The notes under the pieces are model-generated. The model did not search any database and had not been told where the DNA came from. It was given only the letters and a program-made list of their open reading frames with translations. Below are positions 6,745-23,163 of a stretch of 24,975 nt of DNA, piece after piece. Each line of letters begins with the position of its first letter. The first letter of the stretch is position 1. The stretch comes from a virus: the IMG/VR virus record IMGVR_UViG_3300044971_001475, positions 1-24,975 of that record. One strand, written 5' to 3'. The position numbers were made by a program, and so were the translations under genes.

Positions 6745-7347
6745 ATGGCAGTTCTCGCAGGCCGCAACGCAGATATCTACCTCGCCACCGGCAGCGGCAC
6801 GGCCATGACCGGCGAAGCCACGACCAGCCTGGGCGGCAACGTGTACCAGATCACGGACGCCGCCCGCAGGGCCATCAACCCCAACGCATCGCTTACGGTT
6901 CTCGATGGAGCCACGCCGATTCCATCCAGCCGGTACCAAGTAGCCTACGGCAGCGGCAAGATCTATTTGCAGGCTGCGCCGGCGGGCACGGTGACGGTCA
7001 CCGGCGAGTTCCTGACGCTATCGAAGGTCGCGCAGGCAACGGACTGGACGCTCGACGTGCAGCCGGTACTCGAAGAAGTGCAGGTGTTTGGCGACTCTTG
7101 GAAGTCTAGGGCTCGCGTTGGCGGCGATGCGACCTGCACGTTCGCGCGCTTCTACAACGACAATTACTTTCACACGAGCGCCACGAGCTACTACGTCATC
7201 AACTGCTACGCCGATTACGCCGGCGGCGTGCGCTGGATGTTTGGCGCGATGCAAAATAGCATGAGCGTAAACACTGGCGAAAATGAGACGATCAAAGAGA
7301 ACGTCAGCTTTTCCGTGCATGGCGTGCTCGACTACCTAAACTCATGA
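6745..7347 (+). CDS. Major tail tube protein, copy 2 (long paralogue)
   Basis: A 200-residue paralogue of the preceding tube protein, nine bases downstream and with its own ribosome binding site (AAGGAG at 6734-6739). It shares the MAVLAG opening and the block DWTLDVQPVLEEVQVFGDSWK, but carries about 65-70 extra residues between them (roughly residues 15-85, rich in Ala, Thr, Gly). This extra part has the look of an inserted small beta domain (segments ASLTVLDGATPI, SGKIYLQAAPAGTVTVTGEF). The C-terminal half also diverges. It could be the real tube subunit, a second subunit in an alternating tube, or a specialised ring at the tip or terminator. It ends in an ATGA overlap with the chaperone gene. 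Confidence 0.85.
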   Translation: MAVLAGRNADIYLATGSGTAMTGEATTSLGGNVYQITDAARRAINPNASLTVLDGATPIPSSRYQVAYGSGKIYLQAAPAGTVTVTGEFLTLSKVAQATDWTLDVQPVLEEVQVFGDSWKSRARVGGDATCTFARFYNDNYFHTSATSYYVINCYADYAGGVRWMFGAMQNSMSVNTGENETIKENVSFSVHGVLDYLNS

Positions 7348-20566: not shown

Positions 20567-21271
20567 ATGAGCACACTTACTGAGTATATCCAGGCAGCGC
20601 AACCCGCTGCCGCTCCAGAGCAGCCGAAGCGGTCGCTACTGGATGACATCACCGACGCGACGCTAAAGAGCCGCGCCGATCAATTGCGGATCGACGCCTT
20701 CGAGGCGGGGAGGCGGGCGCAGGCGCTGGGTATTCCCGCGCCGCAGATCGAACTGAAGTATATGTACGGGCGAGACTACGGTTTCAACGAAGCGCAGTCG
20801 CTTCAGTTCATCCACCTGATTCCGCAGGGCGGAATGCTGATTCCGGCGCTGCACTACAAGGGCCGCGCGGTCCTGCTGCGGCGCGCTGGCTACAACTGGA
20901 AGGTCGTCGAGCACACGGAGAAGGCAAGCGAATATGCCTTCTATTTCATGGGCGAAGCCATGACCGACGAAGCTGGCAAGCCGCTGCGAATTCGGTACAC
21001 GCTGGACGACGCCACGCGGAGCGGACTGGTGGCGCGAAGCCGCGGCAAAGACAACAAGCCCGGTACCTACGACCAGTTCGGGCACGAGATGTTGTTCGCG
21101 CGGATGCTGTCTCGCTTCCATGCGTTCCACGCGTCCGAGGTCGCGGGCGGGGCGGCGGTGGATACCAGCGACTCGCTCATTCAGTCGGTCGTTGACGAAA
21201 CCGAGTCCCGCATGGGAGCCGCCACCGTTCTCGCTGACAAGCTCGCCGAGATCAAGGGGGCCGCTGAATGA
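20567..21271 (+). CDS. recT: RecT-family single-strand annealing protein
   Basis: A 234-residue protein of the RecT type that coats single strands and anneals complementary DNA. Signatures are the segment YGFNEAQSLQFIHLI, then GGMLIPALHYKGRAVLLRRAGYNWKVVEHTEK, and the region GKDNKPGTYDQFGHEMLFARMLSRF, in which the ordering of the conserved aromatic and charged residues matches RecT-like proteins from actinophages and other phages. The N-terminal 25 residues are Ala/Pro-rich and disordered. A GGAAGAGGAG ribosome binding site precedes the ATG. The pair with the upstream nuclease is the usual two-component phage recombinase. It overlaps the SSB-like gene by ATGA. Confidence 0.88.
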   Translation: MSTLTEYIQAAQPAAAPEQPKRSLLDDITDATLKSRADQLRIDAFEAGRRAQALGIPAPQIELKYMYGRDYGFNEAQSLQFIHLIPQGGMLIPALHYKGRAVLLRRAGYNWKVVEHTEKASEYAFYFMGEAMTDEAGKPLRIRYTLDDATRSGLVARSRGKDNKPGTYDQFGHEMLFARMLSRFHAFHASEVAGGAAVDTSDSLIQSVVDETESRMGAATVLADKLAEIKGAAE

Positions 21272-21678
21272 TCGCGCAAAGCCTACAGGACAAAACCTGG
21301 TACGACGTCCGTATTGTGGGACTGCGGAAGGTGGAACTCGGCCAAAACGGTACCCAGGCGCTCGAAGTGGTCGTTCGGTTTGCCGACGACTCACAGGGCA
21401 GCACCAATCTGTTCTTGACGCCCAAGTCGCTCAGCAACACTCGCAAGCGTCTCGAAGCCCTCGGCGCAACCGAGGCCGACCTGACCGGCGGCGACTGGCT
21501 GCGAAAGTTGAACGCGCGGTTGGCGGACGCGCAGGCGTCGGTCGTGGCAGAGGAGCAGGAGAAGTACGGTGTGCGATTGAACGGCCCGTTCCCGCGTGGC
21601 GGTGGATCGGCGGCGCGGGAAGTGGAAGCGGGGCCGTCGCCTTTCGCGGCGATTGGCGATCAGGACGTGCCGTTCTAA
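21268..21678 (+). CDS. Small probable single-strand DNA-binding protein with SSB-like acidic tip
   Basis: A 136-residue protein starting in an ATGA overlap with the annealer gene. The first half (residues 1-60: TWYDVRIVGLRKVELGQNGT, QALEVVVRFADDSQGSTNLF) reads as a beta-barrel, as in OB folds, followed by a helical part (SLSNTRKRLEALGATEADL). The C-terminus ends DQDVPF, matching the SSB tip DDDIPF that recruits SSB partners. A disordered Gly/Ala/Pro linker lies before it. The combination supports a single-strand DNA-binding protein made with nuclease and annealer. The fold assignment is inference; the tip is directly visible. Confidence 0.78.
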   Translation: MIAQSLQDKTWYDVRIVGLRKVELGQNGTQALEVVVRFADDSQGSTNLFLTPKSLSNTRKRLEALGATEADLTGGDWLRKLNARLADAQASVVAEEQEKYGVRLNGPFPRGGGSAAREVEAGPSPFAAIGDQDVPF

Positions 21679-21707
21679 AGATTGCGTGGCATCGCTGAGC
21701 AATGCTC

Positions 21708-21741
21708 GGCGTGGCCAGGCAGGGCAGGGGTAGTAGCGCAG
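21708..21741 (+). repeat. Pentamer array 1a plus GGGTAGTAGCGCAG
   Basis: GGC occurs at 21708, 21713, 21718 and 21723, every five bases, and the next unit at 21728 is the start of GGGTAGTAGCGCAG (21728-21741). The motif therefore sits exactly in phase with the array. Immediately after it begins the first hairpin element. Upstream of it, at 21697-21707, there is a small GAGC/GCTC hairpin. Confidence 0.8.
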
Positions 21742-21789
21742 TGCGGGCCGTGCCCGCAAATGGTTTTCACGCGAGAGGCATTTGCGGGC
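21742..21789 (+). promoter_or_regulatory. Structured element copy 1 with two alternative hairpins
   Basis: TGCGGGC (21742-21748) can pair with GCCCGCA (21752-21758) around CGT. Alternatively GCCCGCAAATG (21752-21762) pairs perfectly over 11 bases with CATTTGCGGGC (21779-21789) around a 16-base loop (21763-21778, containing TTTTCA, GCGAG and GG). The two structures share the arm 21752-21758 and cannot form together. A related element with different stem bases is at 22582-22630. Confidence 0.72.
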
Positions 21790-21842
21790 CGGGCCTGGCA
21801 TGGCGGGGCGAGGCCCGGCTGGGCAAGGCAAGGGTAGTACCG
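21787..21842 (+). repeat. Pentamer array 1b plus GGGTAGTACCG
   Basis: GGC recurs at 21787, 21792, 21797, 21802, 21807, 21812, 21817, 21822 and 21827 with an exact five-base period, and the tenth unit at 21832 begins GGGTAGTACCG (21832-21842). The array ends 19 bases before the next gene. The + strand is G-rich. Its first unit overlaps the last arm of the hairpin element. Confidence 0.82.
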
Positions 21843-21861
21843 ATTTAACAACGAGGACATC

Positions 21862-22479
21862 ATGGAAACAATCAAAGCGACACTGACGGGCAAAGCGCCC
21901 ATTCTTCTGCACAATGGGCATTTAGTCGACCCGCGGAACGTCTTTACGCGCGAAATTGACTCGGCGCAGAAGGCATACAAGAAAGCCAAGAGCGACGCGG
22001 CATTTGACGCGCTGGCGGCGGTTGAATGGCTTGGCGGTCTTTATACGACCGAGCCAATTATTTTTCGGCGCGACGGAAACAAGGTCGTGCTTGAGAACGA
22101 TTCGCCGATCTGCATTGATGGTGAGATGCTGACGCGGTGCTTAGTTCAGAGCGCTGGCCGGAAAGAGGTGGCGGCATTCAAGGCCGGGGTTTTTTGCGAC
22201 GGCATGTTTCAACTGCGCGTCGGCGGGAAGGCTGCGACGACGCAGCGATGTTTTTTGGATCCGCGCTATCAGTACACTCGGCCGGCCAAAATCGGCACGA
22301 GCAAGATTATGCGGACGCGGCCACGGTTTGACGCGTGGTCGGTTGAGATTGAGATTCAGTATCTGCCAGAGATTGTGACGCGGCGCGACGTTGAAGACGC
22401 GCTAGCGCGGGCTGGCAGTATCAAAGGGATTGGCGACTGGCGGCCGCGCTTTGGGCGGTTTAGCTCGGTCGTTAAATGA
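21862..22479 (+). CDS. Unknown protein flanked by pentamer/hairpin elements (205 residues)
   Basis: ATG 21862 follows GAGGA (spacing five). The 205 residues open METIKATLTGKAPILLHNG, then a helix KKAKSDAAFDALAAVEWLGG, DSPICIDGEMLTRCLVQSAG, and later TSKIMRTRPRFDAWSVEIEI. It ends GSIKGIGDWRPRFGRFSSVV. I recognise this as a recurring unknown phage protein often near recombination genes, but no experimentally known function. The opening beta strand with PILLHNG and the Gly/Arg-rich ending GIGDWRPRFGRF recall RAMP/Cas7-like RNA-binding folds, a loose resemblance only. It is the only gene between the two pentamer/hairpin regions and so looks like a cassette between repeated borders. Confidence 0.82.
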   Translation: METIKATLTGKAPILLHNGHLVDPRNVFTREIDSAQKAYKKAKSDAAFDALAAVEWLGGLYTTEPIIFRRDGNKVVLENDSPICIDGEMLTRCLVQSAGRKEVAAFKAGVFCDGMFQLRVGGKAATTQRCFLDPRYQYTRPAKIGTSKIMRTRPRFDAWSVEIEIQYLPEIVTRRDVEDALARAGSIKGIGDWRPRFGRFSSVVK

Positions 22480-22480
22480 T

Positions 22481-22579
22481 GGCAAGGCGCGGCGTGCCAG
22501 GGCTCCGCGTGGCGTGGTGTGGCGCGGCAGGGCGAGGCTAGGATAGGCATGGCGAGGCTAGGCAAGGGTAGTATCGCAG
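22481..22579 (+). repeat. Pentamer array 2a plus GGGTAGTATCGCAG
   Basis: Starting two bases after the stop of the previous gene, units of five bases run from 22481 to 22565 without a phase slip. Of 17 units, 13 start with GGC; the others (at 22496, 22506, 22516, 22541) differ by one or two bases. The 18th unit, at 22566, begins GGGTAGTATCGCAG (22566-22579). This is the longest of the four arrays. Confidence 0.85.
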
Positions 22580-22581
22580 TA

Positions 22582-22630
22582 CGGGACGCCAGTCCCGCTG
22601 GTGGCCTTCAGCGAGGGGCACAAGCGGGGC
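22582..22630 (+). promoter_or_regulatory. Structured element copy 2 with two alternative hairpins
   Basis: CGGGAC (22582-22587) pairs with GTCCCG (22592-22597) around GCCA. Alternatively GTCCCGCT (22592-22599) pairs with AGCGGGGC (22623-22630), one pair being T-G, and after one G-A mismatch GTG (22601-22603) pairs with CAC (22619-22621). The loop (22604-22618) contains CTTCA, GCGAG and GGG, as in copy 1. Compared with copy 1 the stem bases differ but pairing is kept, so the structure, not just the sequence, seems conserved. Confidence 0.72.
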
Positions 22631-22691
22631 AGGGCGCGGCAGGGCGTGGCAGGGCCGGGCTAGGCGCGGCAAGGCACGGGTAGTATCGCAG
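22628..22691 (+). repeat. Pentamer array 2b plus GGGTAGTATCGCAG
   Basis: GGC occurs at 22628, 22633, 22638, 22643, 22648, 22653, 22658, 22663, 22668 and 22673, exactly every five bases, and the next unit at 22678 begins GGGTAGTATCGCAG (22678-22691). A ribosome binding site (AAAGGAG, 22700-22706) and the next ATG at 22711 follow. The layout copies array 1b. Confidence 0.84.
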
Positions 22692-22710
22692 GGAACAACA
22701 AAGGAGCAAA

Positions 22711-23163
22711 ATGCAATATCCATTAGACTTTTCAGCGCTGGACAAGGGCCAGCTACTAGAAATTGAGACGCTGGAGGCCGTATTCGCGCAGCGTTACGAA
22801 ACCAGCAACGACTGGGATTTGCAGCTAATGAAGCTGCAGGGATTGATTCACGCGCATCGGTCGGACATTACGGTAACCATTGACCGCGACCGTCTGCGCG
22901 TGCTGACTGATGCGGAGGCCAGCGAACACAATGCGCAGCTAGTGGCGCGGGGCGCTCGGTTGATTATGAGCCGCAACGAGCGGCTTTTGTCGGTGGATCG
23001 TGGGCAGCTTGACGCGGACCAGTCAATCGCCCATGACCGGCGCGTTTTGGTGTCATCGGCGCTGGCGGCTGGCGTTGCTGAGAGCAGGCGGCGGATAGTG
23101 GCTGTGCCGGGCAACGGTCTGCCGCGTCGGTCGCAGCAGCTTGGGGTGGAGGAGATAGCCTAA
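22711..23163 (+). CDS. Unknown phage protein downstream of the second repeat region (150 residues)
   Basis: ATG 22711 with AAAGGAG four bases upstream. The first 60 residues are helical (LDKGQLLEIETLEAVFAQRY, LQLMKLQGLIHAHR), then a short beta piece (ITVTIDRDRLRVLTDAEAS), then a basic helical C-terminal part (NAQLVARGARLIMSRNERLL) and a tail with PGNGLPRRSQQ. The layout, helical start, TVT..RD.LRVLTD.EA..HN and a basic helix, recalls a recurring family of unknown proteins in tailed phages, often paired with the preceding gene. The basic surface would suit nucleic acid binding, but this is inference. It overlaps the next gene as TAATG. Confidence 0.75.
   Translation: MQYPLDFSALDKGQLLEIETLEAVFAQRYETSNDWDLQLMKLQGLIHAHRSDITVTIDRDRLRVLTDAEASEHNAQLVARGARLIMSRNERLLSVDRGQLDADQSIAHDRRVLVSSALAAGVAESRRRIVAVPGNGLPRRSQQLGVEEIA

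Follow-up and report, generated by a model that had tools for sequence, protein, structure and literature searches.

VIPR (Viral Interference Programmable Repeat) was described in a 2026 preprint as a CRISPR-like weapon of phages against rival phages (PMC13142463). It is composed of the RAMP-family protein Vipr, vrRNAs of 9-16 YNNGG units with a 3' tail, and a vap gene, and it recognizes DNA noncontiguously, one base being skipped per NN (PMC13142463). In Escherichia phage SUSP1 (KT454805), the vrRNA expression, ribonucleoprotein assembly, 1-nt skip rule, transcriptional repression and enhancement by Vap1 were reported, and the guides match a satellite phage (PMC13142463). Here we analysed a stretch of 24,975 nucleotides (the window; positions 1 to 24,975 of the 25-kb virus record IMGVR_UViG_3300044971_001475), in which four non-coding arrays of GGCNN pentamers surround a 205-codon gene. 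Judged from sequence and a structure model, this locus is very probably a phage-encoded VIPR system.

The four arrays keep GGC in exact 5-nt phase and continue in phase into GGGTAGTANCG at 21728, 21832, 22566 and 22678, as an earlier note on the letters of this DNA had read them. GGC was perfect in 4/4 units of array 1 (21708-21727), in 9/9 of array 2 (21787-21831; the scan count includes a stray GGC upstream), in 13/17 of array 3 (22481-22565) and in 10/10 of array 4 (22628-22677). When 200 versions of the window were generated with a first-order Markov model, the phased GGC maximum on either strand was 5, while the window has runs of 9, 13 and 10; the pattern is thus far above chance. Array 1 is longer than given in the earlier note: reading upstream in phase, we found nine units at 21683-21727 (TGCGT GGCAT CGCTG AGCAA TGCTC GGCGT GGCCA GGCAG GGCAG) with GC at positions 2-3 and the first base free (NGCNN), and five successive phased GC have a chance of about 2e-5 per position. 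The unit counts are therefore 9, 9, 17 and 10 instead of "10 to 18". No long repeats with spacers were found in the array region.

All predicted parts of the locus are on the plus strand. Putative vrRNA 1 (21683..21738; NN = GT AT TG AA TC GT CA AG AG; tail GGGTAGTAGCG) and vrRNA 2 (21787..21842; nine GGCNN units, NN = CG CT AT GG GA CC TG AA AA; tail GGGTAGTACCG) precede the vipr gene (21862..22479), which lies between the array pairs. Putative vrRNA 3 (22481..22576; tail GGGTAGTATCG) and vrRNA 4 (22628..22688; NN = AG GC AG GT AG CG TA GC AA AC; tail GGGTAGTATCG) follow it, and the vap1-like gene (22711..23163, 150 aa) is located after the arrays. The GGGTAGTANCG tail is invariant within the window and resembles the SUSP1 tails. 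One hairpin (21756..21785), possibly a spacer or processing element, lies between vrRNA 1 and vrRNA 2, and two more (22583..22625), also of presumed function, lie between vrRNA 3 and vrRNA 4.

The open reading frame (ORF) at 21862-22479 matched the solved SUSP1 Vipr (PDB 36pp) with an E value of 1.6e-21 in phmmer and 2.2e-46 in profile comparison, and BLASTP gave 30% identity over 200 aa with SUSP1 ALH47069. It belongs to phrog_4652 and contains a C-terminal glycine-rich loop (GIGDWRPRFGRF). The AlphaFold model reached a predicted local distance difference test score (pLDDT) of 96, and its best PDB neighbours were all CRISPR RAMPs, such as Csm3/Csm5/Cas7. By sequence and model, we identify this gene as vipr. 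The ORF at 22711-23163 was joined to SUSP1 Vap1 relatives by iterative hidden Markov model (HMM) search and matched Vap1 in profile-profile comparison (probability 96.7, E 3e-10), which identifies its predicted product as a remote Vap1 homologue. The Pfam scan of nine window proteins revealed no Cas protein, and Rfam covariance models over 21500-22900 gave only sub-threshold chance matches (hammerhead-interspersed VIPR arrays are known).

Guides turn over on a constant scaffold between near-identical phages. In array 2 of the close relative L110, 12/18 NN bases were changed relative to the window but only 1/27 GGC bases, while 8/300 flanking bases differed (97% identity). This agrees with the earlier note, which had proposed selection on the periodic bases, free NN positions and no recent copying. 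Guide 2 is replaced in L110 and L024, and array 4 of L110 is another guide; array 3 of L110 differs by one base, and array 1 is identical in L110, L024, L068 and L098. Loss of phase in related phages had been named as an outcome that would speak against the pattern, as had chance frequency, but the exact 5-nt phase was preserved in the close relatives. A natural tail variant was also observed: on the minus strand of L098 (about 7130-7250), arrays 3 and 4 carry GGGTTGTATCGA as their tail instead of GGGTAGTATCGC.

The arrays are widespread in viruses. Outside the window, the scan of IMG/VR with nine GGCNN units found arrays in at least 120 viral stretches, whereas the GGGTAGTA ending, for which the earlier note had also suggested a search, was confined to this lineage within the scan made. 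The NN positions were varied in 114 of the 120 listed array stretches. Among 418 imperfect units across phages, C-to-T was the commonest change (188) and C-to-G was found in 6; because C-to-T dominates, the constant triplet is better written as GGY. The earlier note had proposed selection on GG every five bases; the third base is constrained too. The array size peaked at 9-12 units in this sample, which was selected for nine or more units in a row. An array usually begins a few bases past the stop of a same-strand gene, and the orientation is mostly that of the upstream gene; owing to shadow reading frames, calls for the downstream gene are less reliable. The HMM of the window Vipr matched in 86 of the 120 listed stretches. 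In the first scan, which comprised 115 stretches, its only matches were nine relatives that bear arrays and L013, where a short array is present as well.

Under the VIPR reading, the four vrRNAs, each with NN on a GGY scaffold and a GGGTAGTANCG tail, would flank vipr and be followed by vap. Each 5-nt unit of the RNA would be covered by about one Vipr subunit, which would grip GGY and leave NN exposed. These NN pairs would read double-stranded DNA of rival phages as NNxNNxNNx, with the skip at the codon wobble, and the bound ribonucleoprotein would block transcription, so that by analogy the window phage may act as SUSP1 does. Phased protein-RNA binding, one of several options listed in the earlier note, fits this prediction. 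The NN of 404 guides fitted codon positions 1-2 best, with a Kullback-Leibler divergence of 0.07 compared with 0.16 and 0.23 for the other phases, and also better than genomic dinucleotides, which agrees with the wobble-skip rule of the preprint.

For target scanning, six guides were used as eight-unit NNx patterns, with one skipped base per pair. Guide 1 gave 41 matches, with 32 contigs in one PD-(D/E)XK exonuclease family (PF12705, phrog_1218); these sites are on the antisense strand at the motif (R/K/N)LWTDFQIT, with all skipped bases at the codon third position. Guide 2 of L110 gave 19 matches, of which 13 hit the motif IPYRLP(E/D)L of a single primase-helicase family (AAA_25, phrog_239); here too the sites are antisense and the skips lie at wobble positions. 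We consider these two predicted targets rather probable. Guide 1 may act against the recombination exonuclease of rivals. The tail-proximal last unit was unmatched at both targets and last units are enriched for AA-type dinucleotides across phages, which suggests that the last units are part of the tail. Guide 4 of L110 gave 12 matches, often in frame, in unrelated proteins, and a search with all guides in about 3 Mb of sequence gave too few matches for testing skip rules. An "RLIGDPC" motif among the matches of guide 2 was dropped, since it is outside open frames.

It is less probable, though a serious possibility, that the locus is a VIPR system while the exonuclease and primase-helicase targets are chance matches to conserved motifs. 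A background exists, since each of the four remaining guide patterns had 8 to 13 incoherent matches; a motif matched by chance would recur throughout its conserved family, and the last unit is mismatched in both cases. However, two of the six guides each match a single family of core phage genes, in many divergent members and in the wobble frame, and the constancy of guide 1 in the relatives is what a conserved target would predict. The pattern of guide 1 was also found in 0/754 cellular genomes of two classes; its reversed control was absent from them as well, and no host was found thereby. Several further observations weigh against the VIPR reading or its details: guides 2, 4 and 3 of the window gave 8, 9 and 13 matches without a coherent gene, the match counts stand without a shuffled-guide null, folding of the short tails revealed no common fold and no pseudoknot, the first G is absent from four units of guide 1, and guide 3 with 17 units is one longer than the published 9-16. 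There is about an even chance that the lineage aims at core recombination and replication genes of rivals, swaps guides in a near-constant locus, does not read the unit next to the tail and tolerates NGCNN, its code being looser than the published one.

Two explanations without VIPR were considered, and both appear very improbable. The arrays could be DNA sites which phase the RecT-like annealase of the phage, making a hot spot of recombination or a primer for replication; each LiRecT monomer binds 5 bp (PMC9772228), and recombination genes are directly upstream of the arrays. The earlier note had favoured a replication or recombination site on account of the nuclease, annealer and SSB-like neighbours. 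But these are upstream neighbours only: HMMs of the window YqaJ, annealase-like and SSB-like genes matched few of the listed array loci, whereas the arrays accompany vipr. The phasing of RecT also leaves unexplained the wholesale replacement of NN on a fixed scaffold and the common tail, and an R-loop primer at the locus, another of the options listed, is unsupported. Alternatively, the GG tracts could form two-layer G-quadruplexes or R-loops (in a leader RNA or on the non-template strand) as a regulatory element, considering that the coding strand carries GG every five bases and that arrays mostly follow the direction of the upstream gene. A quadruplex needs no C/T third base, yet this base is constrained, and for this reason we rejected the two-layer quadruplexes proposed earlier; the vipr association and the guide turnover would also be unexplained.

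Besides the locus, the window encodes terminase, portal and capsid, so it is derived from a phage, and the closest relatives of the capsid in named phages are those of Caulobacter, Bradyrhizobium and Streptomyces phages (28-37% identity). The ORFs 20567-21271 and 21268-21678, between YqaJ and the arrays, had no Pfam or PHROG match; they are called annealase-like and SSB-like, respectively, by position and appearance alone.

Vipr homologues were also found in named phages, annotated as hypothetical in Mycobacterium phage Quico (L242:3323-3919) and Cyanophage Cy-LDV1 (L240:5277-5843), and tblastn matches were obtained in Pseudomonas phage LESphi2 and in Felixounavirus-type Salmonella and Escherichia phages. 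In BLASTN, neither the region nor a long array matched any named phage; one short array matched a few phages weakly. The literature on GGCNN or pentameric phage repeats offered nothing useful under those descriptions; the VIPR preprint (PMC13142463) surfaced under broader terms. The Vipr HMM found nothing in about 34 of the stretches L120-L239, nor in L241 (Acidovorax phage Alfacinha1, array-like match at 42-84); such stretches may be truncated, may contain divergent Vipr types or may carry orphan arrays. The array scan of cellular genomes returned mostly microsatellites of identical units. In some cellular assemblies, a Vipr homologue accompanied varied GGCNN arrays, namely in metagenome-assembled genomes of Patescibacteria (L259), Fibrobacteres (L253), Alphaproteobacteria (L315, two Vipr hits) and Bradyrhizobiaceae (L346) and in Dokdonella fugitiva (L349); these five loci are probably prophages.

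Long GGCNN arrays of other phages are divided into blocks of about 6-14 units between fixed delimiters. The delimiter is a 4-nt unit, GGCA|GGC or GGCT|GGC, in L121, L136, L141, L227, L231, L233 and L238, and is GGCGTTCAGGC in L125, GGCACCGCAGGC in L143 and GGCATCGCAGGC in L216. These delimited arrays may be staggered or other architectures of further VIPR types. In L124:6301-7010 we found one in-phase array of 142 units, 120 of them with perfect GGC, longer by far than the published vrRNAs.

The VIPR reading would explain a striking non-coding pattern of many phages, including isolated ones whose vipr is annotated as hypothetical. It would place VIPR in a new phage lineage, for which targets are predicted, and the comparison of near-identical phages gives direct evidence of guide turnover. 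VIPR itself was already described; the predicted targets are new here, and so is a guide whose first base is free (NGCNN).

Compared with SUSP1 (PMC13142463), the window locus is likewise phage-encoded, has homologues of vipr and vap1 and flanks vipr with GGYNN arrays; the SUSP1 arrays are GGTNN around the same two genes, and the tails of both start with GGTAGT. The window locus would probably be of type II, as that of SUSP1. The two differ in the scaffold, which is GGC in the window and mostly GGT in SUSP1, and in vap, which directly follows vipr in SUSP1 but comes after the downstream arrays in the window. The window also has two array pairs with hairpins between them and the NGCNN units of guide 1, and its predicted targets differ from the satellite phage targeted by SUSP1. 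Class 1 CRISPR-Cas systems, in which Cas7/Csm3 filaments form on crRNA, share with VIPR the RAMP fold, the glycine-rich loop, the protein filament on a guide RNA and the reading of a DNA target with periodic unpaired bases. Unlike them, the window has no repeat-spacer array and a noncontiguous predicted code, and no Cas1/Cas2, Cas5, Cas6 or Cas10 was seen in it. TRAP sites, ((G/U)AGNN)11, are RNA arrays that likewise repeat a triplet and a two-base spacer about 11 times and are read by an oligomeric protein. In the window, however, the triplet is GGY, the NN bases would be informative, and the predicted protein is a RAMP.
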